From: Candidatus Zixiibacteriota bacterium
GTDB lineage: Bacteria; Zixibacteria; MSB-5A5; GN15; FEB-12
DNA length: 64,000 bases
Reading direction: 5' to 3'
NCBI GenBank assembly: GCA_024280215.1
Contig: JAJRQO010000017.1
Span: 1 to 64,000, forward strand
Below, in pieces: positions 15,626-63,256 of this stretch. Below the pieces are notes generated by a model. That model did no database searches. It had not been told where the DNA came from and saw nothing but the letters and a program-made list of their open reading frames with translations. A program made the translations under genes and the position numbers. Each line of letters opens with the position of its first letter. Within the stretch, counting starts at the first letter, position 1.

Positions 15626-16498
15626 TTAACCAGTTAAAGCGAATTTCTCTCGTACCATGTTTCTCAGTTTCATAACTGCCTTTGTATGAATCTGCGAGAC
15701 ACGTGATTCAGAGATAGTCATTACTTAGCCGATTTCTTTGAGTGTTAGCTCTTCAAAATAATAGAGAGCAATAACAAGTTTTTCCTGTTTAGTTAGTTTG
15801 TTAATCGCTACTCCTAAAAATGATTTTAACTCTGCTTTTTCTAAATCACCTAAGACTGAAACTGTTTCATGGTCAATCACCGTTTCAATCCTCGGCACCT
15901 GGCGGTTATCATCTTCGCGATAGATAACTTCGTCCAAAGATAAAATATGTGTTCCAGAAATATCACCCAAGGCAGCATGCATTTCTGGCATAGTAAGGTT
16001 CATTTGTTTTGCAAGCTCTGTTTTCTCAGGTTTTCTACCATGAATATTTTCAAGAGCTGTTAAGGCTCTATCAATTTCACGTGCTTTAGCACGAGTAGAA
16101 CGAGGTACCCAATCCAAGGCACGAAGTTCATCCAAGATTGCACCACGAATTCGAGTAACTGCATACGTTTCAAATTTAACGCCTCTTGCAGGATCGTAAT
16201 TTTTAAAGGCTTCAATCAAACCAATTACACCTGTTGAAACTAAATCATTGATTTCAACTGAGCGTGGAAAACCCATCGCCATTCTTGTAGCAACATTCTG
16301 AACAAGCGGAACATATTTATCAAGAAGTTTACGGCGACGTTCTGGAGAACGGTCATTCCAATAACGAGTCCATTCCTGAGGTGAGACATCCCACTTCTTG
16401 ACCCGTTTTGGTTTTACAGGCGTTTCCAGAGCTTTTGAGACCGTAGTTTGTTTAGCCATTTTGCTTTTTTTCTTCTTTTCTTTTAGTGTGCTAACCAT
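15626..16498 (-). pseudogene. fliA: Flagellar sigma-28 factor fliA interrupted by an in-frame TAA
   Basis: The intact frame runs 257 residues: a Lys-rich N-terminal extension, sigma region 2 (LVSTGVIGLIEAFKNYDP, FETYAVTRIRGAILDELR), region 3 and the start of region 4 (LYYFEELTLKEIG). It then meets TAA at 15727-15725. The same frame continues without shift for 32 residues reading VMTISESRVSQIHTKAV and onward, the canonical sigma-28 recognition helix, to a proper TAA at 15628-15626. Homologues have Glu, Gln or Ala at the stop position, so a single base change (for example GAA to TAA) explains it. The truncated product lacks the -35-binding helix. Confidence 0.88.
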
Positions 16499-16505
16499 AA
16501 GAATG

Positions 16506-17363
16506 CTATCCCTTTATATCGGCTACTGCCGTAGTTTTATTTATTCGTTTGAATGAGTTATTTGTAAAAGATGTCCTTGCAGACCCTAAAAGCTTGTGAG
16601 CCAAAACGTTAAGCTCTTTAAATGCAGATGAATTTGGATTTGATTCCGAGATAGTTTGTTGAGATGCAACCGCTTTTCGGAAATCATCACTTTCTGAGAG
16701 AAATCCAAAATACTTTGGCACTGATTCGACAAACCGTTCGGCTACCGCACAAAGCTTGGAATAAATATATTCAGCTTCGTCTGATTGTGCCGCTCGGTTG
16801 ACTAAGAAACGACATTCAAGTTGAGGGTTGATATCGTGTAAATATTTAAAAAGTCCGTAGCTGTCGGAAATCGATGTAAGTTCTGGAACCAATACGGTAA
16901 GAACCATGTCAGATGCATACGCCATGACGGATGCATGTTTGTTTACACCCGAACTATGATCGATTAAAACAACATCATACTCAGTAGCTTCTCTTCGAAT
17001 TCTATTCATACATTCGGCGATTGTCGGAATATCTATTTCATCAAAAAGAGAAATCGAATTTACCGATGCTATGAGAGATATGTTTTTTGAAATTTCTATT
17101 GATGATTCTTTAAGTGAAAGTTGTCCGGTGGCAAATTGTCTAAATCCATAATCAACAGAAAGATTTGCCAAAATATGTTGATTACCAAAATTTACATCAG
17201 CATCAATAATCAGAACCCGCTTGCCTAAGTGGGTTAATACATCAGCGAGATTATTAACAATGACAGATTTACCAACTCCACCTTTTCCAGAGAGAACCGA
17301 AATAATTTTGTTTTCTTTCCGTCTTACGGCATTAGTTGCTTGTTTGAGTTGTAATCTATTCAC
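16506..17363 (-). CDS. flhG: FlhG/FleN MinD-like ATPase, flagellar number regulator
   Basis: 285 residues. ParA/MinD-type P-loop with deviant Walker A SGKGGVGKS (25-33), the DADVNFGNQH Walker A' region and the VLIDHSSG Walker B-like segment. The N-terminus carries QLKQATNA, like the FlhF-activating helix of FlhG. It controls FlhF and so the number and position of flagella. Its start overlaps the end of flhF by 8 bp and it precedes fliA. Confidence 0.93.
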   Translation of the reverse strand: MNRLQLKQATNAVRRKENKIISVLSGKGGVGKSVIVNNLADVLTHLGKRVLIIDADVNFGNQHILANLSVDYGFRQFATGQLSLKESSIEISKNISLIASVNSISLFDEIDIPTIAECMNRIRREATEYDVVLIDHSSGVNKHASVMAYASDMVLTVLVPELTSISDSYGLFKYLHDINPQLECRFLVNRAAQSDEAEYIYSKLCAVAERFVESVPKYFGFLSESDDFRKAVASQQTISESNPNSSAFKELNVLAHKLLGSARTSFTNNSFKRINKTTAVADIKG

Positions 17364-18516
17364 TTGCCACCTCGGATTGTAAAATTTGGTTTACAAGTTC
17401 CGCTGCCTGAGGCCTGTGTAAAAGTCCAATACCACCAAGGGTATCTGTTGTATAAATAATTTTTAAACCAAATGTATGAGCAGCAGTAATAAGAGTACCA
17501 AGACAACTGGTCATGTCAGTTTTTGTAATGACAAGATGGGTTGCATTGATGGTCTTCATCTGTTCTTGAAATAACACAACATCTTTGGAACGCATGATTG
17601 CCGAGAAGACAGCAATGCGATAGTTCGTTTTGATAGCATCAAGTTTGTCGTTGATAGGAATGATATTTTCAACAATGTTTGGGAGAGCCACAGTATCAAT
17701 TAGAGTAATCGTGTTATTATTTTTTGCTGATTCTTCAGCGTTTCGATTATCCGCATAGTCAACACCCAAGATTTCTGCATATGCAGCAGTTTCATCGTAT
17801 GCCCCCATTTTGACATCGTCCAAAGTTATCAACGTAACTTTTTTCTTTTCTCTCATGACAAGAGTTGCAGCAAGCTTACCCATGACAGATGATTTCCCCG
17901 CTCCTGCTGGACCTACAACAGCAAGTTTGTCACCATGTGATAGAGAAAAGTCTTCGGTAGTGTAACCAATAATTTTTTCAGCCAATTTCATTTTGACGAA
18001 TGCCATAGTAGAATCCGCACTATCGTAAGTTTCTTGTAATTCAGTTATAAATTCATTGATAAACTCTGCTGAAAAATCATGTGACAATAATTGTTCATAA
18101 ACATTTTCAAATGGAGCATACATTGATTGTTGTTCTTTCGAACCAGTCTCAAGAAATGTGTTTATTTTTAACTCAAGTTTTTCATATCGTTTTTGCCAAA
18201 CATCATCGGTCGATTGATGGTTAATTTCTGGAGTTGGTTTTAGTGTAGGTTCAGGAGTAGGTACAATCGATTGGTCTTCAAGTTCAGGTGCTTCAATCAC
18301 AATTGCTCTTGGAGCTGTAGTTGTTTCATCTGGGAAAATTTTGGATGTTTGTCCAACAGTTGGATTTTCAAGACACGCTGTCACTTCATAGACAACTCTA
18401 CCTAAAGAGCCTTCCTGTTGAGTCGTTTTGAGAACAATGGCATCTCCACCCATCTCTTCACGAACTCTTTTTAATGCTGCAGAAGATGTTTCTGCTCTGA
18501 ATGTTTTAATTATCAT
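17356..18516 (-). CDS. flhF: FlhF, SRP-type GTPase for flagellar placement
   Basis: 386 residues. The N-terminal B domain (IIKTFRAETSSAALKRVREE) leads into a Pro-rich linker with PTPEPTLKPTPE, then the N and G domains with P-loop GPAGAGKS (202-209), LITLDDVKMGAYD and the TKTDMTSCLG specificity element. It recruits the first flagellar components to the membrane. It overlaps flhA by 11 bp and flhG by 8 bp, so translation is coupled. Confidence 0.93.
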   Translation of the reverse strand: MIIKTFRAETSSAALKRVREEMGGDAIVLKTTQQEGSLGRVVYEVTACLENPTVGQTSKIFPDETTTAPRAIVIEAPELEDQSIVPTPEPTLKPTPEINHQSTDDVWQKRYEKLELKINTFLETGSKEQQSMYAPFENVYEQLLSHDFSAEFINEFITELQETYDSADSTMAFVKMKLAEKIIGYTTEDFSLSHGDKLAVVGPAGAGKSSVMGKLAATLVMREKKKVTLITLDDVKMGAYDETAAYAEILGVDYADNRNAEESAKNNNTITLIDTVALPNIVENIIPINDKLDAIKTNYRIAVFSAIMRSKDVVLFQEQMKTINATHLVITKTDMTSCLGTLITAAHTFGLKIIYTTDTLGGIGLLHRPQAAELVNQILQSEVASE

Positions 18517-20584
18517 CGTTTAACCTCACCATCCCGGTCGAGACCAGCTCAACATCAGGTAAAATTTCGTTATATGAAACCACAGCAAGTGACGGACATG
18601 ATGCTTCGACTAATCGACGCAGAGCAAGCCTGATATTTGGTGAACAGATACAGACTGGGACATACCCAGCTGACTGCATTAAGTCTGACTGTGATTTAAT
18701 TTTTTCTATAAGTATCTCTGTCATAGCAGGATCCATCACAAGCATCAAGCCTTGTTTGGTGTTCTGCACAGAGTCTGCTAATTGCTGTTCTATTTGTGGA
18801 TCTATTGTAAAGACATTTACTTTTCCTGATTTATCACGGTAGAGGTCGGTAATTTGACGCTTAAGTGACATGCGTACATATTCTGCTAAGACATCGGAAT
18901 CTTTTGTGACGCTGATATAATCAGAGGTTGTTTCCAAAATTGTTGCTAAGTCACGAATCGGAACTTTTTCAGAAAGTAAAGAAACAAGCACTTTTTGCAA
19001 TGAACCGAGTGGTACTATTTCAGGAATAACTGAATCGACCAAGGCTGGATAATCTTCTTTGAGAGTATCAACCAGTCTTTGTACATCTTGCCTTGAAAGA
19101 ATTTCAGATGATGCCCCTCGGATAACTTCTGTTAAATGTGTTGCCACAACTGCAGAAGGTTCAACAACCGTGAATCCTTTTGCTTCAGCGATTTCTTTTA
19201 AATTTGGAATAATCCAAGTTGCTTTTAAACCAAAGGCTGGGTCGATTGTATCAAAACCATCAAGTTTATCATCAACAAAACCAGGGTTGATTGCTAACAA
19301 ATGATCAACCATCAACTCAAATTTTGCAATCGTGATGCCCTTGATTTTTACCTGATATTCATTTGGTGAAAGTTGGACATTGTCACGAATACGTACTGAA
19401 GGAACAATCACACCAAGTTCGGTTGCAAGTTGTTTCCGAATAGTTCCAACACGACTTAGTAAATCGCCACCCTGTTTGACATCAACAAGTGGAATAAGCC
19501 CGTACCCAATTTCAAGTCCTAATGAATCGACTTTGAGTAAATCTTCAGTACGTTCTTTTGGTTTCTCTTCTTCGGTTTGTTTTTCTTTTTGTTCTTGTTG
19601 TTCTACAGCAGCAATTTTTTCTTGTTTTGCCGCTTCACTTGACATATATCCAACACCACCAACAATGGCACCTAATACCATAAAGGTAAATGTTGGCATA
19701 CCAGGCATCATTCCGAATAAGAACAAAACAACGGCCGCAACCATAATTGCTCGTGGTTGTCTGGTTAGCTGCTGAGCAAGTTCTGTCCCCATGTTTGATT
19801 CAGAGGTAGAACGGGTAACAATAATACCCGATGCAGTAGAAACTAATAGTGATGGGATCTGTGTGACGAGCCCATCACCAATCGAAAGGAGCGAATACGT
19901 TTTTATCGAATCCGCAAAAGACATATCATTCATGGCGATTCCGATAATGAATCCACCAATAATATTTATCAACGTAATTAAAATTCCTGCGATAGCATCA
20001 CCACGTACAAACTTCGATGCACCGTCCATTGCCCCATAAAAATCAGCTTCACGAGCAATCTCTGCACGACGGTTACGAGCATCTTCTTCTGAAAGAATAC
20101 CCGCATTTAAATCAGCATCAATAGCCATCTGTTTACCAGGCATCGCATCCAATGTAAAACGTGCCGAGACTTCAGAAATACGACCAGCACCTTTGGTAAT
20201 GACAACAAACTGAATAATGACCAAGATGATAAAGACAATAAAACCAACAACGTAGTTTCCCTGTACAACAAAATTACCAAATGAATTGATAACTTCACCC
20301 GCATACGCTTCACCAAGAATAAGCCGAGTCGATGCGACGTTGAGTGACAGACGCAAAAGCGTAACAATCAAAAGCATCCCAGGAAAGACTGAGAGTTCAA
20401 GCGGTTTGTTGACATAGAGAGTTGTCAGTAAAATGACAATTGAAAATGTAATATTAAATGCTAAAGCAAAATCGAGTAGGATTGTCGGTATCGGAATAAT
20501 AAGTACCGCAATAATACCGATAAACCCAACTGCTAATAAGACATCGGAACGGGAAGATAATTTTTGTAACATGCTTTCTTGCAT
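18506..20584 (-). CDS. flhA: FlhA, flagellar export gate
   Basis: 692 residues, the usual length. About eight N-terminal membrane segments, the conserved FHIPEP cytoplasmic loop (RFTLDAMPGKQMAIDADLNA and following), a charged linker (about 320-345, rich in Glu, Gln and Lys), then the C-terminal four-subdomain export platform. It forms the nonameric export gate with FlhB, FliP, FliQ and FliR. It starts 2 bp after the flhB stop. Confidence 0.97.
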   Translation of the reverse strand: MQESMLQKLSSRSDVLLAVGFIGIIAVLIIPIPTILLDFALAFNITFSIVILLTTLYVNKPLELSVFPGMLLIVTLLRLSLNVASTRLILGEAYAGEVINSFGNFVVQGNYVVGFIVFIILVIIQFVVITKGAGRISEVSARFTLDAMPGKQMAIDADLNAGILSEEDARNRRAEIAREADFYGAMDGASKFVRGDAIAGILITLINIIGGFIIGIAMNDMSFADSIKTYSLLSIGDGLVTQIPSLLVSTASGIIVTRSTSESNMGTELAQQLTRQPRAIMVAAVVLFLFGMMPGMPTFTFMVLGAIVGGVGYMSSEAAKQEKIAAVEQQEQKEKQTEEEKPKERTEDLLKVDSLGLEIGYGLIPLVDVKQGGDLLSRVGTIRKQLATELGVIVPSVRIRDNVQLSPNEYQVKIKGITIAKFELMVDHLLAINPGFVDDKLDGFDTIDPAFGLKATWIIPNLKEIAEAKGFTVVEPSAVVATHLTEVIRGASSEILSRQDVQRLVDTLKEDYPALVDSVIPEIVPLGSLQKVLVSLLSEKVPIRDLATILETTSDYISVTKDSDVLAEYVRMSLKRQITDLYRDKSGKVNVFTIDPQIEQQLADSVQNTKQGLMLVMDPAMTEILIEKIKSQSDLMQSAGYVPVCICSPNIRLALRRLVEASCPSLAVVSYNEILPDVELVSTGMVRLNDDN

Positions 20585-20585
20585 C

Positions 20586-21656
20586 TTAGTTTACCTTCTT
20601 CCCTTTGAGTTTGTATACATGAGCTAAAATCTCAGCAACTGCTTTAAAGAGATTTTGAGGAACCATATCACCGATAGAACAAATTTTGAACAATGCTCGT
20701 GCGAGTGGTTTATCTTCGATAACTGGAACACCATTATCTTTGGCAATTTGTTTAATTTTCTGAGCAATTTTCCGTTCACCCATAGCAAGTACATAGGGAG
20801 CATCACCTTTTTCAGCATCATACTTCAAAGCAACAGCGATATGAGTTGGGTTTGCAACGACAACATCAGCCAGCGGCACAGCATCCATCATGCGTGAACG
20901 AGCCATGTCACGTTGGACTTGTCGAATACGAGATTTTAACTGAGGAGAACCCTCGGTATCTTTATGTTCATCCCGTAAATCTTGTTTTGACATCTTGATA
21001 GATTTCTCGAATTCATATTTTTGATAAGCATAGTCAAGAACTGAAATGATAAATATCACACCACCCATTTTGAGTGCCAGCCCAAGAGTCAATTTTCCCA
21101 TGATTGTCGCAAACTGTATTATCGACATATCTGGTAACAGGAAGAATGATTCAAACTCCCCTTCAATTGTTTTATAAGCGACAATACCAATAACCGTCAA
21201 CTTGATAGAATCTTTAAAGAACTTTACTAAAGACTTCATCGAAATTATTTTTTTAGTTCCTTTGATAGGATCAAGCTTTTCAAATTTTGCTTCTAATGCT
21301 TTAGGAGTAATTTTAAATCCAACCTGAGCAACGTTCACGGCAAATGCAACAACCATCAGAAGAGCAAACAGAGGTCCTAACAGAATAAAAAATTTGAGTA
21401 GAGAATCACCAAAGACAGTAATAAATGTCGGGTCAGAGAGAGCAATCTCAGGAGCATTGGTCATTGTATGACGCATCAGTTCCATGATTTTGTTCGCCAT
21501 AAATGGACCCATCATGTAGATTGATAAAAAACCTAATCCAAGCACAGCAGCAGCATTCAAGTCCATCGACTTGGCAACTTGTCCTTCTTCACGTGCTTTC
21601 TCGCGCCGCTTCGACGACGCCCGTTCGGTTTTATCTTGTGAGTCTTGTTCTGACAC
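20586..21656 (-). CDS. flhB: FlhB, export switch protein
   Basis: 356 residues. Basic N-terminus, four membrane segments and a cytoplasmic domain with the autocleavage motif NPTH at 269-272, identical in position to the Salmonella/E. coli protein. The switch changes export from hook to filament substrates together with FliK. It is adjacent to fliR (1 bp) and flhA. Confidence 0.97.
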   Translation of the reverse strand: MSEQDSQDKTERASSKRREKAREEGQVAKSMDLNAAAVLGLGFLSIYMMGPFMANKIMELMRHTMTNAPEIALSDPTFITVFGDSLLKFFILLGPLFALLMVVAFAVNVAQVGFKITPKALEAKFEKLDPIKGTKKIISMKSLVKFFKDSIKLTVIGIVAYKTIEGEFESFFLLPDMSIIQFATIMGKLTLGLALKMGGVIFIISVLDYAYQKYEFEKSIKMSKQDLRDEHKDTEGSPQLKSRIRQVQRDMARSRMMDAVPLADVVVANPTHIAVALKYDAEKGDAPYVLAMGERKIAQKIKQIAKDNGVPVIEDKPLARALFKICSIGDMVPQNLFKAVAEILAHVYKLKGKKVN

Positions 21657-22448
21657 TTAGACATTCCCTATCGAATAGAGTAAAGTTTTCGTTCCAGTAT
21701 CGAAATAATGGAGCGACTGTTGGATGACGTAGGTAAACATTGGAAGAGATAGTCCCATAACGACAAGACCTACCGCAATTTTTATTGGCATACCAACAAA
21801 GAATACATTCATCGTTGGCATTGTTTTCGAAATAGTTCCTAAAGCGATATCAGTGAGATAAAGTGTGATAACCACTGGAGCGGCAATTTTAAAAGCGATT
21901 ACAAAAATGTACGCAGAGTATTTTATCATCATCTCGCCGACTTCACCAGACATCTGAAAATTACCTGGTGGTATCACTGCAAAACTTTCAACCAATGCGT
22001 TGATGACCAGATGATGTCCGTTGATACTGATGAAAAAGAGAAGTGCGATGATATACCAAAAGCGACCGATTATTGAAATCTGGGTCTGGTTTGATTGATC
22101 AAATACCTGAGCAAACATAAAACCCATTTGGTATCCAATTATTGCCCCCGCAATCAAAACACCATAAAAAAGCATTCTGAATAAAAGCCCGATTATGAAA
22201 CCGATTAAAATTTCATTAAAGACTAAAGATACAAGATCAAAATTTGACTTGATTGCTTGATAGCTTTCAGGATTTGGAATGGTAGAGGTGATAAGTAGCC
22301 CAAACATAACAACCAGCCCAACTTTTATCATTTTTGGCAAACCCTTATCACTAAAGACAGGTGCCATGATAAACAGACCAGAAGTACGGATAATGATAAG
22401 AAAAAAAATAATTATCTTATCAGAGCTGTAATTAATAAATTCAAACAA
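21657..22448 (-). CDS. fliR: FliR, flagellar export apparatus membrane protein
   Basis: 263 residues with about six hydrophobic segments and the family pattern (FRTSGLFIMAPVFS-like opening and the GFIIGLLFRML loop). The start codon is TTG at 22448, with AAGGA 8 nt upstream. Unlike its neighbours it is separated from fliQ by 214 bp that contain no gene. Confidence 0.94.
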   Translation of the reverse strand: MFEFINYSSDKIIIFFLIIIRTSGLFIMAPVFSDKGLPKMIKVGLVVMFGLLITSTIPNPESYQAIKSNFDLVSLVFNEILIGFIIGLLFRMLFYGVLIAGAIIGYQMGFMFAQVFDQSNQTQISIIGRFWYIIALLFFISINGHHLVINALVESFAVIPPGNFQMSGEVGEMMIKYSAYIFVIAFKIAAPVVITLYLTDIALGTISKTMPTMNVFFVGMPIKIAVGLVVMGLSLPMFTYVIQQSLHYFDTGTKTLLYSIGNV

Positions 22449-22662
22449 GTCAAAATTCCTTAGAATACGGGTTATTCGACTATATGTATCACAAATCGTA
22501 TGCCAAACGATTTAGCTCATTTTTTGAATTTTAACTCACTGTAAGACTTAAGGTTATGTTTTTAAAAAAAGTATGTGGTGGGATATTCGATTTTGATTGT
22601 GGAAAATATTACCAGCTCTGTTGGAAAAAAGTTCAATTGCCCCTTTTAATTCATTCATATCT

Positions 22663-22932
22663 CTACCCGACTAATGTAGGTATCATTTCAAACATATGTC
22701 TGGTAAAATCTATCGCCAAATTTGTCATCCATGGTAAAAATATCAGCAGTGCAACAGCAACAGCAACGATTTTTGGGATAAAAGTCAACGTCATTTCTTG
22801 AATTGATGTAATCGCCTGAAAGACTGAAACAGTCACACCGACAACTAAAGCTGCAACAAGCATAGGAGCTGAAAGAAGCAACACCATTGAGAGTGCTTCA
22901 CGACCGATTGATACTACAGTTTGTGGATTCAT
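22663..22932 (-). CDS. fliQ: FliQ, flagellar export apparatus membrane protein
   Basis: 89 residues with two transmembrane helices and the family core VFQAITSIQEMTLTFIPKI. It packs with FliP and FliR into the export channel. AGGAG is placed 9 nt before the ATG. It follows fliP by 16 bp. Confidence 0.95.
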   Translation of the reverse strand: MNPQTVVSIGREALSMVLLLSAPMLVAALVVGVTVSVFQAITSIQEMTLTFIPKIVAVAVALLIFLPWMTNLAIDFTRHMFEMIPTLVG

Positions 22933-22948
22933 AAATTTTAACTCCTAT

Positions 22949-23701
22949 TTATAGATGGAATGATTCCACCAATGATTTTATAAGTAAGTACCAGCCATCA
23001 ACCAATACGAACAGCAATATCTTAAATGGTAACGACACAATAACTGGCGGTAACATCATCATACCCATCGACATCAAGACCGATGCAACGACCATGTCAA
23101 TAACCAAAAATGGTATGAATAATATAAATGCAATTTGAAATGCGGTTTGTAATTCTGAAATCACATAACCTGGAATCAAGACATGCAGAGGTAAATCTTC
23201 AGGCGACTCAGGACGATCAATTTTTGCTATATCTACAAAGAGAGCTAAATCTTTTTCACGGGTTTGCGTAAGCATAAATTCTCTAAATGGACCGACAGAT
23301 TTTTCAAACGCCTCTTCCTTACTGATCTTTTCTTCAAGATATGGTTTAATACCTTCGTTGTATGATTTATCAATAACAGGTGACATCACAAAGAAAGTCA
23401 GAATCAACGCCAATGCGATTAACAGTTGCCCAGGTGGCATCTGTTGAATACCCATTGCCTGACGTAAAAATGAAAGTACAACAGTAAAACGAATAAACGA
23501 TGTCACCATAATTAAAATAGATGGTGCCAAAGTAAGTACCGTCATCAGTATAACAATTTGCAGTGTTGTTGAGAGATCTCCACTATCAGCAGATTCCCCT
23601 ACTTCTATTGAAACTTTGGGAAGGGTCTGTGCGATAAGATTGACAGAGCTTAATGCTATTACACTTGAAGCTGAGATAAAAAGTCTCAGTAACTTTTTCA
23701 T
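22949..23701 (-). CDS. fliP: FliP, flagellar export apparatus membrane protein
   Basis: 250 residues, with a cleavable signal peptide and four later membrane segments. Signatures: SFIRFTVVLSFLRQAMGIQQMPP (seen as two adjacent blocks at about 65-87) and the C-terminal VIDMVVASVLMSMGMMMLPP. It forms the pentameric core of the export gate. Confidence 0.96.
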   Translation of the reverse strand: MKKLLRLFISASSVIALSSVNLIAQTLPKVSIEVGESADSGDLSTTLQIVILMTVLTLAPSILIMVTSFIRFTVVLSFLRQAMGIQQMPPGQLLIALALILTFFVMSPVIDKSYNEGIKPYLEEKISKEEAFEKSVGPFREFMLTQTREKDLALFVDIAKIDRPESPEDLPLHVLIPGYVISELQTAFQIAFILFIPFLVIDMVVASVLMSMGMMMLPPVIVSLPFKILLFVLVDGWYLLIKSLVESFHL

Positions 23702-23768
23702 ATCCTATATCTTTCTTTAAGTGACGTCCATGTCACCGACAGTATCCGATACTGTCGAAATTATTTAT

Positions 23769-24374
23769 TTATACTTCAACCTTTTGAGTTGATTGTACGG
23801 TCAACAGTGATTTTATTTTATCACCATTGGCAAATGCTTTCATCTTTACTGATGCTGAGCTCAACATATTTTGAAATGCGTCTGGTTCAATTTCAACTTC
23901 AATACCTCGCATAATTTCTTCTGTTTCTTCCGAATCCATTTCAGTTAACATCGAAATTTGGTTTTCTGTTGATGCAACCAAGACTGATTTTCCAGCAACC
24001 CGTACAAGTGAAATTGTTTTTTTAGGACCGATATATGTCGTCTCGAGTACTTCTAAAATATTATGCTTTTTATTACCTGAATATTTTTTACCCATCATAC
24101 GTTTGAGAATAAAAACTCCAAGATAGATAGATAAAATAACAACCGCCAAAGCACCACCAACTTTTAACATCGATGGCATAGATGAAGATGCGTAGCCATT
24201 ATATGTTGGTTGATCTGCATTGGTTGGAGCTTGCTCTACAGTAGTAGGAGGAGTTGAAACTTCGCTTTCCGCTACAACTTGTCTTGAGTTTATCCCCAAA
24301 ACACCAAGTAAAGCAAAAGCGATAATTGCCAAAACCATCAATTGTGATTTTTTAGGAAATTTATTTTTCTTCAC
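23769..24374 (-). CDS. fliO: FliO, flagellar export assembly protein
   Basis: 201 residues. A first hydrophobic stretch (about 10-32), a Thr/Pro/Ala linker, a second membrane segment (about 72-95) and a FliO domain with the ILEVLETTYIGPKKTISLVRV block typical of the family (given as adjacent blocks). FliO helps assemble the FliP ring. The start overlaps the fliN stop by 14 bp. Confidence 0.88.
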   Translation of the reverse strand: MKKNKFPKKSQLMVLAIIAFALLGVLGINSRQVVAESEVSTPPTTVEQAPTNADQPTYNGYASSSMPSMLKVGGALAVVILSIYLGVFILKRMMGKKYSGNKKHNILEVLETTYIGPKKTISLVRVAGKSVLVASTENQISMLTEMDSEETEEIMRGIEVEIEPDAFQNMLSSASVKMKAFANGDKIKSLLTVQSTQKVEV

Positions 24375-24936
24375 CTAATGCCTTCAATCTTTCTTCAGGA
24401 GTTAAGAGCTGTGTAATACGAACGCCGAAGTTTTCGTCAATAACAACAACCTCACCTTTGGCAACCACTCTTTGGTTGACCAATAAATCTACAGGTTCAC
24501 CAGCAAGTTTTGCAAGTTCGACAATTGACCCAGGCCCTAAGGCTAAAATATCTGATATAGACATTTTTGTCCGACCTAATTCAATAGCAACTGGCAAATT
24601 GACATCCATGAGCATATCAATATTTTTTGTTTCAGGTTTTCCAGCAGGTTCAGATAAATGTTGGAACTCAACATCTGAAACCGATTGAGGTTCTTTCGAT
24701 GGAAAATCAATTTCTCCTAAATCAGCACCACCATCTTCTTCTGGTAGATCCTCAAGCATAGCAAGCATTGCTGCTTCAGCATCATCTTCTGAGGCATCAT
24801 CTTCATTGACAATTTTGTTAGCATCTTCTACTTTTACTTCTTCAGAAGCAACTTCAACGGCAACATCCTGTTGTTCGTTTTCAGCTTGAGACTCTTCAAT
24901 GTTCTCAGGTGTGTTAATATCTTTTTCGTCAGTCAT
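24361..24936 (-). CDS. fliN: FliN, flagellar switch protein
   Basis: 191 residues. The N-terminal 105 residues are an acidic low-complexity extension; the C-terminal SpoA/FliN domain (about 108-190) has VNLPVAIELGRTKMSISDIL, GSIVELAKLAGEPVDLLVN and the final GVRIT. It builds the C-ring base with FliM and FliG and takes part in switching and in docking export substrates. It overlaps fliM by 1 bp (TAATG). Confidence 0.93.
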   Translation of the reverse strand: MTDEKDINTPENIEESQAENEQQDVAVEVASEEVKVEDANKIVNEDDASEDDAEAAMLAMLEDLPEEDGGADLGEIDFPSKEPQSVSDVEFQHLSEPAGKPETKNIDMLMDVNLPVAIELGRTKMSISDILALGPGSIVELAKLAGEPVDLLVNQRVVAKGEVVVIDENFGVRITQLLTPEERLKALGEEK

Positions 24937-25973
24937 TAGTTTGTGACCTCCATATTTTCATTCACATTTAACTCTTCACTATAATCCGGTTCGCCTTCTT
25001 CAAAGAATTCCATAACTTGGAATGCTCTTTTTTTGCCCGAAAGCCCTGGACTTCCTATGTATTTTTTTCGATGATTGACATAAATATCAATTGGTTCAGA
25101 ACTTTTTTTCTCCGAAGGAATAATATCACCAATTCTGAGACTTAAAAAATCTTTTACCTTAATTTCTGTATCTAATAACACTGCAGCAACTTCTGCTTCT
25201 ACATTTTTCAAATTGAACAAATTCAGAACTTTATCTGCTTCAAGATTTTTCTTTTTGGTCGCATCAATCCAGTTTTGAGCGGAAAGTTTTGTAATAATTG
25301 GTTCAAGTGCGACATACGGATAACAGACTGTAAGGAGTCCAGTTGATTGAAACAATTTTATTTGGAACGAGACAACTACAACAGTTTCACCTGGTGGAAC
25401 AATCTGAATAAACTGCGGGTTTGTTTCATAACTTTTTTGATCAACTTTGATTTTTACAATATTTTCCCATGAACGTTCTAAATCATCATATAATTTTAGA
25501 ACAAGACGAGACATAACTGATTTTTCAATACCTGTCAGTTCACGTTCCGTCTCCAAAATTTTTCCATTACCACCAAACATTCTATCAATAAATGCAAATG
25601 TCAAAGTTGGGTTAAAATCAACTAAGTTCACCGCATCAAGTGGATCAGCACCAAAAGTATAGGTACACGATGGTGTCACAAGTGACATGATAAATTCTGA
25701 ATATGTAATCTGATCAACTGAGACTAAGTCAACGTCGACAATTGTTCGCATCATAGCAGATAATGTCGAGGCATAATGACCTGCAAAGTTATCATGCATA
25801 TTTTCAAGAGTACGAATCTGATCTTTTGAAACTCTGTTCGGATGCTTAAAGTCATAAGCAATAACCGAACGCAATTTATCATCATCGTAACTTTCCTCTT
25901 CAACAATATCATCTCCTGTCGATACCGTTGTTAGTAGAGCATCTATCTCATCCTGTGATAGTATTTTTGCCAC
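24936..25973 (-). CDS. fliM: FliM, flagellar switch protein
   Basis: 345 residues. It has the N-terminal CheY-binding peptide (LSQDEIDALL, residues 5-14), a central CheC-like domain with FIDRMFGGNG, and a C-terminal SpoA domain. The preserved CheY peptide implies that chemotaxis or response-regulator control of the motor exists even though no che operon is in the window; the two single-domain receivers at 8.8-9.6 kb are possible partners. Confidence 0.95.
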   Translation of the reverse strand: MAKILSQDEIDALLTTVSTGDDIVEEESYDDDKLRSVIAYDFKHPNRVSKDQIRTLENMHDNFAGHYASTLSAMMRTIVDVDLVSVDQITYSEFIMSLVTPSCTYTFGADPLDAVNLVDFNPTLTFAFIDRMFGGNGKILETERELTGIEKSVMSRLVLKLYDDLERSWENIVKIKVDQKSYETNPQFIQIVPPGETVVVVSFQIKLFQSTGLLTVCYPYVALEPIITKLSAQNWIDATKKKNLEADKVLNLFNLKNVEAEVAAVLLDTEIKVKDFLSLRIGDIIPSEKKSSEPIDIYVNHRKKYIGSPGLSGKKRAFQVMEFFEEGEPDYSEELNVNENMEVTN

Positions 25974-25985
25974 TGTGCAAATTCC

Positions 25986-26549
25986 TTATTGTAAAACAAA
26001 GTCCGTATAATAGACACCAGCTAAATCTTTAGTGTGCATTAGTTTTGATAAACGTTTTTTTATCTGATAGCGAACAATCTCTTTTTGTTTGGCATCAGTT
26101 AATTCCGCAACTGTCTTTGAAGAAAGTATTGTAATCAATGCATCCCGAATTACAGGTTCTCTTTGAACAAATTCCTCTTGGAGTTCCATAGATTCAATTT
26201 CAAAACCAAAAGAGACAGATAAGAATCGTGAACCGCCAGTACCTGCCGGATTAATAACAATACTTTCGATTGAATAAATCAGCGATGAAACTTCTTCACC
26301 CTCTTCATTAACCATAGGTTTCTTTTCTTTTTCTTCTTCATGCTTTTCTGTAGCTTGCTCAGTACCGTCGCCTTCTTCACCCTCAGGTGTATCAGCCATC
26401 ATCGGTTTAATCACAAACAAAGCTAGTGCTATCCCAATAACTATCGCACCAACTCCAATACCACCAAATAAAATGAGTTTGTTACCACCTTTTTTCTTTG
26501 GTTCTTCTGGTGTTCCACCTTCTACTACTGTTTTATCTTCTTCAGCCAT
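25986..26549 (-). CDS. fliL: FliL, basal-body associated protein
   Basis: 187 residues: a short cytoplasmic tail, one membrane segment (about 26-48), an acidic linker and a periplasmic FliL domain ending in LAGVYYTDFVLQ. It supports the stator and motor torque. It overlaps flbD by one base (TAATG) and lies 12 bp before fliM. Confidence 0.92.
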   Translation of the reverse strand: MAEEDKTVVEGGTPEEPKKKGGNKLILFGGIGVGAIVIGIALALFVIKPMMADTPEGEEGDGTEQATEKHEEEKEKKPMVNEEGEEVSSLIYSIESIVINPAGTGGSRFLSVSFGFEIESMELQEEFVQREPVIRDALITILSSKTVAELTDAKQKEIVRYQIKKRLSKLMHTKDLAGVYYTDFVLQ

Positions 26550-26779
26550 TAGTTACTCCCATTGGAGATATTTTCAGTATCCGAGCTTTCAACTCGGATA
26601 CTGCTTATTTTATTTCTAAACTCTGTTACCAATTGAATGATGAGACTTGTAGATTCTTTGACCATTATTTTCTTACCTGTGGTAAGAGAAATAATTGTAT
26701 CAGGAATTGCTTCGACAAACTCAATGAGGTCTGAGTTTACGACAAGTTTGGTATCATTTAATCTGGTAACTGTTATCAT
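26549..26779 (-). CDS. flbD: FlbD/SwrD family small flagellar protein
   Basis: 76 residues. The family core MITVTRLNDTKLVVNSDLIE and the IISLTTGKKIMVKES block are clear. In Bacillus the homologue SwrD increases motor torque. Its place between flgE and fliL is the conserved one. Confidence 0.92.
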   Translation of the reverse strand: MITVTRLNDTKLVVNSDLIEFVEAIPDTIISLTTGKKIMVKESTSLIIQLVTEFRNKISSIRVESSDTENISNGSN

Positions 26780-26786
26780 TTATTTA

Positions 26787-28751
26787 CTACCTTTTAATAT
26801 TCACTAATTCTTCAAGCATTGAATCGGAAGTGGTAATAATCCGAGAGTTTGCTTGGAACCCACGCTGGGCGGTAATCATGGTCGTAAACTCCTGAGCGAT
26901 ATCAACAGACGATGCTTCCAAAGCACCCGATGAAATCAATCCAGAAACTGTTGACCCTGCAACACCTTCAATAGCTTCGCCAGAGTTTGCCGATGTTTGA
27001 AAACGTGACATTCCCGCTTTACGTAAACCAGCTTGGTTGGAAAAGTCAGCAAGAGTAATTTGTGCTAATACTCTGGTTACACCATTTGAGAAGAAACCAG
27101 AAATATTACCAACTTGGTCAATTGCAATTTTATCAAGTAACCCAAGACCATAACCATCTTGTGCAACGATTGATGCAGTATGTCCACCTGGAGATTCAAA
27201 ACCTGTTAAACCATCAAATCCGTTAGGAGAACCAGCATTGACTGTTAACGAAATTGTGTCGGCTCCATTGCCTGGATCAATTGTCATTGAGTTTGCTCCA
27301 CCATTGTAGGCGAATGAATTCAACGATGCGTCACCGTTAAATTGTACAAATCCTGATTGACCAGATGTGATATTTTCACCATCTAATGCTGATGCTTCCC
27401 ATTCCCATCGGTTATCTAAACCTGATTTGAAAAATTCAAGTGATAAAATATGTTTGGCACCCAATGAGTCAAAGACTGCAATAGACGTCGAGTGTGATGT
27501 GTCCGCAGTTTCAATGACAAGTGGATTTGTACCTAAAGGACCAGTCTCTAAAAGACCACTTTCGGCTTTAATCTCTACTCCACCACCACCTAAACCTGTA
27601 AGACCAACAACAAACCCTGTCGCTGGATCAATTTCTAAATCCAAAATAGATTCAAAAGGTCCCGAAGCTGCTCCAACACCGTGTGAAGGAGTAAAACTGT
27701 CGGTAGCAACGTATGTAGAAGCTGCTCCACCTGTTGATAAAATAGTGGAGCCTATTGTTGCTCCAAAAACTCTATCAGATATATTGCCAGCTACGCCAGC
27801 AGATAATTCAATATTATAATCAGATTCTGAACCTGCAAAATCACGAGTGATAACAAATTCACCTGATACTTCATCGATTTTAGCAGAAATACCCTGAATC
27901 TTATTTACTTGAATCAATAATTCACCAATTGTAGTATTTCCATCACTAACATTAACATCTTCTGTTCGTGTACTATCAATAGTAATTGTCATATCAGAAA
28001 AATCAGTAACGCCTAAGTCTGCTAAAGTTGTACTGGTAGTTAGTAACGCTGGAGATAAAGCATTTGAACCTGTTATAGAAGTTTGTGTTGCTTGAGTACC
28101 CTCAATGATAACAGAATGAGTTCCACCAATACCATCAGCTGCTAATCCACTAACCAATGTAACACCTGAAACACTCGCACTCAGTAATGTTGGGTTCGCA
28201 GTTGTTGCCGTTGAATCAATATTATTGGAAAGAGTTACTTCTTCTGTCGAACGTGCAGGGTCTTGTTGACCAAATGGTATCGTAATCGGACCAGTAGTCG
28301 CAAGTGATGGAATAAGTCCTGCTGAGTCAGCATTTTTACCAAGAACAAACATACCAGTAGCTGGGTCAACTAAATTAGCGTTGGAATCAAATCCAAAGGC
28401 ACCTGCACGAGTATAAAATTTATTACCGTTGGTATCACCAAGAACAAAAAAACCAGAACCTTGAATCGCAAGATCAGTAATCTGACCTGTCGTTTCAAGA
28501 CCACCTTGTTGGAACAAAGTGTCAATAGCAGCTACCTGCATACCAAGACCAAGTTGAACAGGATTAGTACCACCTGATGTAGCCGATGGACGACCAGCAC
28601 CTTTAAAAGTTTGTACCAGTGCTTCCTGGAAATTCACACGACTGGCTTTATAGCCAATTGTATTAATGTTTGCGATGTTGTTACCAATTACATTCATACG
28701 AACCTGATGATTTTTCAGACCGGATACACCGGCAAATAGTGAAGCCATCAT
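26787..28751 (-). CDS. flgE: FlgE, flagellar hook protein
   Basis: 654 residues, longer than the roughly 400 residues of enteric FlgE because of extra domains in the middle. The N-terminal rod motif (LFAGVSGLKNHQVRMNVIGN then NIANINTIGYKA) and the C-terminal motif (GALEASSVDIAQEFTTMI, AQRGFQANSRIIT) are canonical. The AAGGAGGTAA ribosome site lies 10 nt before the first ATG and is partly inside a hairpin (see 28757-28778). Confidence 0.95.
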   Translation of the reverse strand: MMASLFAGVSGLKNHQVRMNVIGNNIANINTIGYKASRVNFQEALVQTFKGAGRPSATSGGTNPVQLGLGMQVAAIDTLFQQGGLETTGQITDLAIQGSGFFVLGDTNGNKFYTRAGAFGFDSNANLVDPATGMFVLGKNADSAGLIPSLATTGPITIPFGQQDPARSTEEVTLSNNIDSTATTANPTLLSASVSGVTLVSGLAADGIGGTHSVIIEGTQATQTSITGSNALSPALLTTSTTLADLGVTDFSDMTITIDSTRTEDVNVSDGNTTIGELLIQVNKIQGISAKIDEVSGEFVITRDFAGSESDYNIELSAGVAGNISDRVFGATIGSTILSTGGAASTYVATDSFTPSHGVGAASGPFESILDLEIDPATGFVVGLTGLGGGGVEIKAESGLLETGPLGTNPLVIETADTSHSTSIAVFDSLGAKHILSLEFFKSGLDNRWEWEASALDGENITSGQSGFVQFNGDASLNSFAYNGGANSMTIDPGNGADTISLTVNAGSPNGFDGLTGFESPGGHTASIVAQDGYGLGLLDKIAIDQVGNISGFFSNGVTRVLAQITLADFSNQAGLRKAGMSRFQTSANSGEAIEGVAGSTVSGLISSGALEASSVDIAQEFTTMITAQRGFQANSRIITTSDSMLEELVNIKR

Positions 28752-28756
28752 AATAT

Positions 28757-28812
28757 GGTTACCTCCTTGAGGGTAACCGGAATTTCCCTATCAAAATAGA
28801 GTCCAATTCCGG
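28757..28812 (-). promoter_or_regulatory. Tandem hairpins over the flgE ribosome site
   Basis: Two adjacent perfect hairpins share a junction. The first has arms GGTTACC (28757-28763) and GGTAACC (28772-28778) with an 8-nt loop; on the mRNA the Shine-Dalgarno AAGGAGG runs from the loop into the stem. The second has arms CCGGAATT (28777-28784) and AATTCCGG (28805-28812) with a 20-nt loop. The first could mask the ribosome site of flgE. Neither is followed by a T-run. Confidence 0.6.
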
Positions 28813-28850
28813 AATTAAATTATTAGTTATTGTTTTCTTTTCTTTTTTCA

Positions 28851-29255
28851 TTAGATAATCACCGCTGAATCTATCGAAGTGACAATACCTTCGCGTAAAT
28901 TATCTTTATCAAATGCCGTAATGATTGTTCTGTTTTCAACAGAGACAACAAATGCGGTATCATCTGAGAGTATCAATGTTTCTTTAGATCCTTTTTGTGA
29001 TGCTTTGTCAACGGCATCAGCAATTGCGTTAAGTTTATCAGCACCTAATTCAATACCGCGTGAGTAAAGACGTTGTGAAGCATGTTTGGAAAATGATATA
29101 TCACGATCCCCTGCTAACTCTTGTGAAAACATTTCTTTGAATGATTTTTCACCAGTCTGTTGCAGTTTATCTGTAGGTTTATTTCTGTCAGCAATCTCAA
29201 TCAAATTGATTGGACGCTGATAGTTATTTATTTTCATACCACTTCCTATGCTCAT
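28851..29255 (-). CDS. TIGR02530-type flagellar operon protein
   Basis: About 134 residues. The C-terminal domain has the family pattern FSKHASQRLYSRGIEL, then ENRTIITA and the ending IDSAVII. Members are always found between flgD and flgE; the function is unclear. Of three possible starts I prefer the ATG at 29255, which is 8 nt from GAGGT; a later ATG at 29237 with AGGA is also possible. Confidence 0.82.
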   Translation of the reverse strand: MSIGSGMKINNYQRPINLIEIADRNKPTDKLQQTGEKSFKEMFSQELAGDRDISFSKHASQRLYSRGIELGADKLNAIADAVDKASQKGSKETLILSDDTAFVVSVENRTIITAFDKDNLREGIVTSIDSAVII

Positions 29256-29268
29256 CTTCATCTACCTC

Positions 29269-30084
29269 TTATGGGTTCCAAGTAACCGAACGGTCATCAG
29301 AACTATCGGTGTCATCTGTTGTTCCTGATGTATCAGTAGTACCTGTGGAACCTGTATTCCCAGTAGAACTTGTATCATCAGTATCATTATCTGTTGAGGT
29401 GTCAAAAGAACCAACATCTCCAACCGCAGTAATTGAACCAAGAGGAATTTCTGTTCCTTGGATGCGTAAGAATGCTGCACCATCACGATAGATTACTGAT
29501 TCAACGGTACCAGTTAGTGAAAGGTTTGGAGTAAACGAAGTACCATCGGAACGTGAAGCAGTCGCTTCAATTGTGTAGTATCCTTCTTCAACTCTGTTCC
29601 CAGTACTATCGTTACCATCCCACTGAATAGAATTAACACCAGCATCAAGGTTACTTTGTTTTAGAGTAGTCACCGTATTACCGTTAACATCCTTAACAGT
29701 AAACTCAACTGAATCAACACTTGTCGTGAGACTATAGTTGATAACCGCAGGTTTATCATGATTATAATATATACCACTATAACTTGCCTGTGCATCTTTT
29801 CCAATTAATCCAGATGCCATCACATTGTTTAATGATTGCATTTGAAGAAAATCTAAGTCATTAGATTTATCTATACCGTCAGCAATATTATTCATCTGTT
29901 CCAAAGTTGAGAACTGTGCCAACTGTGCAATAGATTCTTCATTAGACATTGGTTCAAGCGGATCTTGATATTGCATCTGTGCAACTAACAATTGCAAGAA
30001 ATCATCTTTTCCAAGTTCCTGCATCGACCCTGTGTCTCTCACACTACCATCAAGATTTGTTGCGACTGGTGATATAAATCCCAT
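29269..30084 (-). CDS. flgD: FlgD, hook cap / hook assembly protein
   Basis: 271 residues. The N-terminal motif (LGKDDFLQLLVAQMQYQDPL, then EESIAQLAQFSTLEQM) is the FlgD signature; a FlgD Ig-like domain follows (QWDGNDSTGNRVEEGYYT). The C-terminal 45 residues are a Thr/Ser/Asp/Gly low-complexity tail, unusual for FlgD. It caps the growing hook. It lies 11 bp after fliK. Confidence 0.93.
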   Translation of the reverse strand: MGFISPVATNLDGSVRDTGSMQELGKDDFLQLLVAQMQYQDPLEPMSNEESIAQLAQFSTLEQMNNIADGIDKSNDLDFLQMQSLNNVMASGLIGKDAQASYSGIYYNHDKPAVINYSLTTSVDSVEFTVKDVNGNTVTTLKQSNLDAGVNSIQWDGNDSTGNRVEEGYYTIEATASRSDGTSFTPNLSLTGTVESVIYRDGAAFLRIQGTEIPLGSITAVGDVGSFDTSTDNDTDDTSSTGNTGSTGTTDTSGTTDDTDSSDDRSVTWNP

Positions 30085-37076: not shown

Positions 37077-38648
37077 TTATCGATTGTTTCGATTATGTCG
37101 TCTTGATTGAAAATCGTTTTTATGATTATTCTGCTGATGATTTCCATTCTGTGAAGAACTATCTTTGTGTTGAGATGAATTCTCTTGTTGAGTCGAATCA
37201 TTATTTTTAGGTGTTTCGTTATTAGAATTTAACTCACCATTTTGCTGTTTTTGCTTTTGTTCCTGCAACGCTTTCAGACGACGTTCCTGCTCTTCACGGT
37301 TCCTTCTCATTACCTCAGGATTTGGGGCTAAGATCGGAGGAGGTGTTGGAAGTGGAGGTGGAGTTTTTTTCGGTTCACTCTGTTCAACAGCCTTATCAGC
37401 TTCGACAGATTTAAACTGCTCAACAGGTTTAGAAATTTCTACAGGTTTTGCTGGTTCATCTGATTCCTGTTTGGTTGATTGAGTTTCAATCTCAGATTGT
37501 TGTACCGTTTCTTCTACGGGAGTTGGTATCGGAGGTGGTTGAATTTTTGGAGGAACTATTGGTTCAGGTTTCATTGGTTGCGTTTCTTGCTCTTGCACTG
37601 GCTGTTTTACCGTTTCTTGTTCAGGAGGCTGTGGAAGAGGCTGAAATTTCGGCGGTACAATTGGTTCAGGCTTCATCGGTTGAGTCACTTGCTGCTCTTG
37701 CTTAGGTTGTTCTTGTACAGGTGGTGGAGTAAATCCCTGTACTTGAGTTTTTGTAGATTCTTGATGGTCAGGTTGCTGCTTTACAGGTTCTTCTTTTGTA
37801 ATTTCCTGTTGAACAGACGGAGTAGTTTCGGTATATTCGCCAGCTTTAATTTTTTGTGAATCTCTGTTGAGTCTAATAAGTTCGGCTTGAGCTTTTTCGG
37901 CATAATCGGCACCATTGGATGCATAGAGAACTGAACGAGAGACATTGATGACCGCAGGTTTGGTGAAATTGTCAGTTCCATAAAGAAGTGATTTCTCCAA
38001 AGAACCGCCTTGAGCACCAACACCAGGAATCAACATCGGCATATCTTTAGCAATCACACGTAAATCTCTTAATTGCTCAGGATTGGTTGCACCAACAACC
38101 AAACCGCAGTTATTTTCTTTATTCCAGTAGTCTACTTTTTCAGCAACAATTTCATAGAGAGGTTTTCCACCAACGTCAAGTAGTTGGAAATCTTTTGAAC
38201 CTGAGTTTGATGTTAAACAAAGGACAAAAATCCCTTTATCTTTATATTCCAAAAATGGTCGCATCGAGTCATAACCCATATATGGACTCAAGGTAACCCA
38301 ATCAGCGTTCATTTTTTCAAACATCGCTTCAGCATAAAATGATGCGGTGTTACCAATGTCGCCACGTTTGCAATCTAATATAATCGGAATATCTTTTGGC
38401 ATTCGACTAACTATAGTTTCCAAAAGCGACATACCATCATGACCAAGATGTTCATAGAATGCGAGATTTGGTTTATAGGCACAGACATGGTCTTTGGTTG
38501 CCTCGACAATATTCATAGCAAACTCATACATTCCTTTTATAGAAAGTGCTGAGTCTGGTGGCATTTTTTTAGGATCTAAATCAAGTCCTAAACAGATGTA
38601 TGATTTATTTTTTTCTTGGGCAGCGATTAGTTTCTCAACAGCGGACAT
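37077..38648 (-). CDS. pyrF: Orotidine 5'-phosphate decarboxylase with long Pro/Gln-rich tail
   Basis: 523 residues. Residues 1 to about 265 are a complete type-2 OMP decarboxylase (GLDLDPKKMP opening, catalytic LDCKRGDIGNTA, PYMGYDSM, and PGVGAQGG phosphate loop). It makes UMP from OMP. The following 250 residues are Pro/Gln/Glu/Lys-rich, with QPMKPEPIVPPK repeated twice, then Gln/Asn/Ser-rich sequence and a basic end (RRHNRNNR). The family normally ends near 270. It overlaps pyrD (TGATG), so it is a real part of the pyr operon, not a fusion artefact of annotation. Confidence 0.9.
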   Translation of the reverse strand: MSAVEKLIAAQEKNKSYICLGLDLDPKKMPPDSALSIKGMYEFAMNIVEATKDHVCAYKPNLAFYEHLGHDGMSLLETIVSRMPKDIPIILDCKRGDIGNTASFYAEAMFEKMNADWVTLSPYMGYDSMRPFLEYKDKGIFVLCLTSNSGSKDFQLLDVGGKPLYEIVAEKVDYWNKENNCGLVVGATNPEQLRDLRVIAKDMPMLIPGVGAQGGSLEKSLLYGTDNFTKPAVINVSRSVLYASNGADYAEKAQAELIRLNRDSQKIKAGEYTETTPSVQQEITKEEPVKQQPDHQESTKTQVQGFTPPPVQEQPKQEQQVTQPMKPEPIVPPKFQPLPQPPEQETVKQPVQEQETQPMKPEPIVPPKIQPPPIPTPVEETVQQSEIETQSTKQESDEPAKPVEISKPVEQFKSVEADKAVEQSEPKKTPPPLPTPPPILAPNPEVMRRNREEQERRLKALQEQKQKQQNGELNSNNETPKNNDSTQQENSSQHKDSSSQNGNHQQNNHKNDFQSRRHNRNNR

Positions 38649-62432: not shown

Positions 62433-63232
62433 TTAAAATTTATCAATGAAATAATTTGTAATTGGATTATCAAATGAATAAATATAATTATCAACAAACG
62501 CAACAAATCCAAACTGTTTTGAAAAATAGAATTCAAACGAACCATCAGTTCTTAAAGGATCATAATACCCCGATATTTGAATACGCATGAGATCAGTAAA
62601 TATTCTTCCATTGTACTCAAGCTCTTCACCTAAACTAATTATTATCAAATTACTATCAGTTACAAATGGGTCGTTACCATTAATATATGATGACCCAGAA
62701 ATAATTTCGTTCGTATCAAGTATATTTTCAAAAATATGCTCCGCAAAAGAATTTAATATTTGAAAATCTAATTGGCTGTTCTCTCTTACAATAAAATTAA
62801 ATTTATACACTGGAGATGGTGGAAACACTATATCATCTATCCAGAAATCAAACTTATAATTTTTACTATAGGCAAAAACTGAATCGGCATATTTAAAAGA
62901 ATAAGTATTTGATGAAATATCCGTTGAAGTTGAACAAGCAAATACTTGATAGTTATATCTCGGATATCTATTCCAACATCATATACATTATTACCGTTTA
63001 TGTCTACAAACGGTTCGCCAAGTGAAAAATCCCAATACATAAAAGGTTCTGGGCGAGCATTAAGAGAATCTTGTTCATGAGCCAATATATAAAACTTTGT
63101 TGTATCAAAATGTATGTAGTCAGAAAATTGATAGACAAGTGGAGTGGGTGGTGGATCGACAATTTTTGTTGAATCGGAACAAGAGATTATGAGAATAAAA
63201 GTTAGAAAAAATAAAAATAAAAACTTCGACAT
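62433..63232 (-). pseudogene. Frameshifted lipoprotein gene
   Basis: Two overlapping pieces make one gene. The 5' piece encodes a lipoprotein signal (MSKFLFLFFLTFILIISC) and a domain to about ...NNVYDVGIDIRD, where the frame turns into unlikely sequence and ends at 62837. The 3' piece, in another frame, is open from about 62975 (YNYQVFACSTSTDISSNTYS) to 62433 (ending NYFIDKF). A single frameshift near 62965-62980 would join them into about 265 residues. GGAGG 6 nt before the ATG at 63232 fixes the start. Unknown family. Confidence 0.75.
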
Positions 63233-63256
63233 GAAACCCCTCCTAAAGGAATTCAA

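Follow-up and report, generated by a model that had tools for sequence, protein, structure and literature searches.

Reading frame and flagellar neighbourhood of fliA

The window (the whole stretch of 64,000 nucleotides analysed here, part of an assembly of 42 contigs that is 96% complete) carries on its minus strand the gene for the flagellar sigma factor sigma-28, fliA, whose frame contains an early stop codon (Table 1). The frame opens with an ATG at 16498 and finishes with a TAA at 15628-15626, and a further TAA occurs at codon 258 alone of its 290 codons. Read directly, the minus strand from 15740 to 15719 is CAAAGAAATCGGC-TAA-GTAATG, and the tail after the premature stop reads VMTISESRVSQIHTKAVMKLRNMVREKFALTG, corresponding to sigma-28 region 4.2. 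The first-pass annotation had described a frame open on both sides of the TAA, followed by 32 codons that spell region 4.2 up to a proper stop. Both points were confirmed, as TAA is found at codons 258 and 291 only, and the tail is assigned to region 4.2, with Pfam matching region 4 in the read-through frame.

Table 1 Features of the fliA locus and adjoining flagellar genes (window coordinates)
Feature	Position	Strand	Remarks
fliA (sigma-28) frame, 290 codons + stop if read through	15626..16498	-	Sigma-70 regions 2, 3 and 4; structure matches
fliA 5' part, 257 codons + premature stop	15725..16498	-	Regions 2, 3 and first half of region 4
In-frame TAA, codon 258	15725..15727	-	GAA in three congeners; one G-to-T change
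Tail, 32 codons, region 4.2	15629..15724	-	Relaxed selection not seen
ATG, two codons past the stop	15719..15721	-	Conserved internal Met in 28/28 readable relatives; no Shine-Dalgarno-like sequence upstream
Terminal TAA of fliA	15626..15628	-	Same position as in congeners
Scaffold helix of the region 4.2 helix-turn-helix, residues 253-260	15719..15742	-	Interrupted by the stop; sister model
Recognition helix, residues 264-286	15641..15709	-	Wholly past the stop; sister model
flhG/ylxH-like gene, upstream of fliA	16506..17363	-	Intact
flhF	17356..18516	-	Intact
flhA, flhB, fliR, fliP, fliO-like, fliN, fliM, fliL, flgE, flgD and neighbours	18506..30084	-	

The block from flhA to flgD, in which gene names were partly assigned by reading the sequences, contains no mid-gene stops when compared with sister contigs, and the earlier description of the rest of the flagellar operon as intact therefore holds. 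The main flagellin gene is likewise open, and its start codon is preceded at about 230 bp by a sigma-28 type promoter, TAAA-N15-GTCGATT (L068 1254-1280). Sites closely resembling it occur in the congeners G001 and G002, and in other relatives a TAAA-type box with GCCGAT stands at the same place upstream of flagellin, both observations resting partly on reading by eye. A genome-wide scan for the sigma-28 promoter pattern was not enriched over scrambled patterns, so support for this promoter comes from its positional conservation. No Pfam match was obtained for FlgM, and the literature searched held nothing on motility in this phylum. In the sister G002, the second flagellin-like gene (L142, G002:C15, 13559), which is related to G000:C6:405-1175 of the present assembly, is likewise interrupted by a mid-gene stop.

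Across the whole assembly, fliA is the sole good match to sigma-28, the other match being an ECF-like ORF of 220 amino acids. No second sigma-28 copy was found, which extends to the entire assembly the initial remark that this was the only flagellar sigma-28 gene seen. An rpoD-type housekeeping sigma gene was not found in the assembly, although relatives have one, and its absence probably reflects an assembly gap.

Domain architecture and structural position of the stop

When read through, the fliA frame matches the Pfam domains Sigma70_r2, Sigma70_r3 and Sigma70_r4, the last over residues 231-280 (E = 2.5e-18); the truncated ORF retains only half of Sigma70_r4 (residues 231-257, E = 1e-6). 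The product is about 60-93% identical to the FliA of relatives, its closest relatives are flagellar sigma-28 proteins, and its top matches among solved structures are 6pfv and FliA 6pmi. Known FliA/sigma-28 factors have in common with the gene described here regions 2, 3 and 4 (as solved for the Aquifex-type 1RP3, FliA 6PMI and the related 6PFV), an ESRVSQ.H recognition helix, a position adjoining flhF-flhG, and a flagellin promoter of the TAAA-N15-GCCGAT type. Unlike them, the assembled ORF stops at residue 257, short of the recognition helix, and a complete region 4.2 is absent from its translation.

To place the stop within the fold we used a structure model of an intact sister protein (L003; mean pLDDT 65, about 85 around region 4), in which the helices of region 4 span residues 237-248, 253-260 and 264-286. 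The first-pass annotation had located the TAA in the recognition helix, which proved wrong, since residue 258 of the sister model falls within the scaffold helix, with the whole of the recognition helix downstream. Aligning FliA 6PMI, whose residue at this site is Ala, gives the same placement.

Comparison with relatives

The search for fliA covered 40 related genomes, the near relatives being metagenome-assembled genomes (MAGs) of Candidatus Zixiibacteriota. Sigma factors were present in all 40, and none of the fliA matches in these genomes contained an internal stop. Codon 258 is a sense codon in each of the 28 relatives in which it is readable, encoding Glu in 26 (GAA or GAG) and Ala in two (GCG), and it is GAA in all three congeners. 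The comparison with sibling genomes, which had been proposed as a check, thus shows the TAA to be private to the present genome and, given the sense codons of the relatives and the GAA of the congeners, to be a single G-to-T change. Because 28 of 28 readable relatives carry on through this codon with Glu or Ala, chance is excluded.

Besides the stop, fliA has nine private amino-acid changes, compared with 10 and 7 in two sisters. Against these sisters, the part preceding the stop has a dN of about 0.05-0.06 and a dS of at least 1; for the tail, dN is 0.03-0.04, a rough value given its length of only 32 codons. The dN of fliA is similar to or below that of neighbouring flagellar genes. Since constraint on the remainder of the gene, including the tail, matches that in the sisters, there is no long-standing decay, and an old pseudogene was rejected. 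Among 116 columns invariant in the other sequences, fliA departs at one residue, P115T (window 16154-16156), where all aligned relatives have Pro; the solved 6pfv also has Thr at this position. The locus combines what a nonsense allele would be expected to show, namely a sense codon in relatives, a single-base change and an otherwise intact gene. The mutation is therefore either very recent or not real.

Background of mid-gene stops and decoding capacity

Searching ab initio for interrupted genes proved too insensitive and missed fliA itself, and a homology comparison was used instead. About 1.24 Mb of the present genome was compared with pieces of two sister genomes (L038-L042 on G003:C45 and L111-L130; L131-L150 of G002), counting stops at 10%-95% of the length of genes of at least 150 amino acids with 70% identity and 90% coverage. 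Over about 50,000 codons from about 133 loci of the present assembly, no gene but fliA has a mid-gene stop, which indicates a clean assembly. The count is six for one sister draft (about 60 loci, about 23,000 codons) and eight for the other (about 108 loci, about 40,000 codons), and noise may thus be a feature of such assemblies. The sister stops include all three stop types, occur mostly once per gene and affect roughly 5-10% of the compared loci. Single in-frame stops are therefore ordinary in draft genomes of this genus, of which the present genome is the cleanest. Among the private single-base changes, G>T/C>A is not over-represented, so that there is no signature of DNA damage, and this origin of the TAA was set aside.

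With regard to decoding, all 37 tRNA genes detected with Rfam in the whole assembly could be typed, and none has a UUA anticodon. The match of RF1 exceeds the cut-off of its family, and a further release-factor match, which is weaker, is probably RF2. A selenocysteine tRNA gene (L110 198-294) is also present, and it reads UGA.

Origin of the premature stop

We lean slightly towards the TAA being a very recent single-base null allele of the only fliA in this lineage or strain, as suggested by the sequence comparisons above. A G-to-T change would have turned the Glu-258 codon, GAA in the congeners, into TAA, and translation would then end at residue 257. The truncated FliA is predicted to keep its core-binding and -10 regions and to lack both the last part of the scaffold helix and the entire -35 recognition helix. 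Without these parts it should be unable to initiate at sigma-28 promoters, that of flagellin among them, and cells with the TAA allele would get no further than the early flagellar parts and would be non-motile. Such a change would resemble ordinary loss-of-function mutations in flagellar regulators, in which a single nonsense change leaves the structural genes intact, except that the only source for the fliA case is a single draft assembly, from an uncultured bacterium. The literature searched offered no direct precedent for a nonsense allele of fliA arising in nature.

The absence of other decay, which fits a recent null allele, would also be seen with an error. Were the TAA a mistake of base calling or of the consensus, or a minority allele that the assembler had picked up, fliA would be intact in the living population, and we consider this a substantial possibility, short of an even chance but almost as likely as the recent null allele; our weighting of the two is a matter of judgement, not computation. 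An error of this kind would be in keeping with the intact and constrained state of the remaining fliA and of the flagellar system, and with the many single mid-gene stops of three types in the sister drafts, which suggest that noise may be common. It sits less well with an assembly far cleaner than those of the sisters, where only one of about 133 loci is interrupted, and with private differences in which damage-type changes are not in excess. A wrong base would nevertheless be compatible with the data, which come from a single draft assembly.

Two further explanations accept the stop as real and the protein as functional. It is very unlikely that a working FliA is still made, whether through read-through or through a restart at the ATG beside the stop, with the stop acting as a translational dimmer on late flagellar genes, and each of these two routes taken separately is less likely still. 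Read-through would give a regulated, low-level supply of full-length FliA and could draw on the frame being open on either side of the stop and on a tail without relaxed selection, but the latter is expected anyway from a very recent mutation. Moreover, both release factors recognise TAA, the search for tRNA genes turned up no suppressor, and the stop occurs in none of the 28 readable relatives and so gives no sign of a conserved recoding site, a possibility that we rejected. Restart at the ATG three bases past the stop (15721-15719), which is near enough for termination-reinitiation, would yield two cooperating FliA pieces, somewhat like SigO/RsoA of Bacillus, a two-part sigma factor split between domains. 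In fliA, however, the break falls inside one helix of the helix-turn-helix in the sister model, which makes it unlikely that a 31-residue piece would fold or bind, and it is seen in no relative. Directly past the stop, the GTA-ATG is the conserved Val-Met of the protein, not an evolved restart, the ATG encoding an ordinary Met in every readable relative. Read-through and restart are thus unsupported, given that no UUA tRNA was found, that the ATG is a conserved Met and that no Shine-Dalgarno-like sequence precedes it. Reassignment of TAA to an amino acid is the least probable reading, to the point of being negligible, and was rejected. It has only the open frame in its favour, and against it stand a terminal TAA shared with the congeners at their end position, RF1 together with an RF2-like match, the missing UUA-anticodon tRNA, and a single internal TAA in about 50,000 codons. 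The first-pass annotation had correctly dismissed reassignment and treated TAA as a normal stop, which no tRNA found here would read. Of the three options that it had left standing, a recent nonsense mutation and an assembly error are supported by the comparisons, which argue against read-through or re-initiation.

Neither the recent null allele nor the error requires a novel mechanism, both being ordinary events of kinds already known. If the base is right, the window would hold a fresh null allele with -35 recognition and late flagellar expression lost, in a strain whose motility has just been lost while every flagellar part seen here is kept; events of this type are common in bacteria. If the base is wrong, fliA is intact, and the case warns against taking lone in-frame stops of draft metagenome genomes as biology without reads.

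Other features of the window

Two adjacent ORFs on the same strand at 62433-63256 resemble one secreted protein broken by a frameshift. At 37077-38648, a pyrF-like protein carries a long, low-complexity C-terminal extension rich in Pro and Gln.
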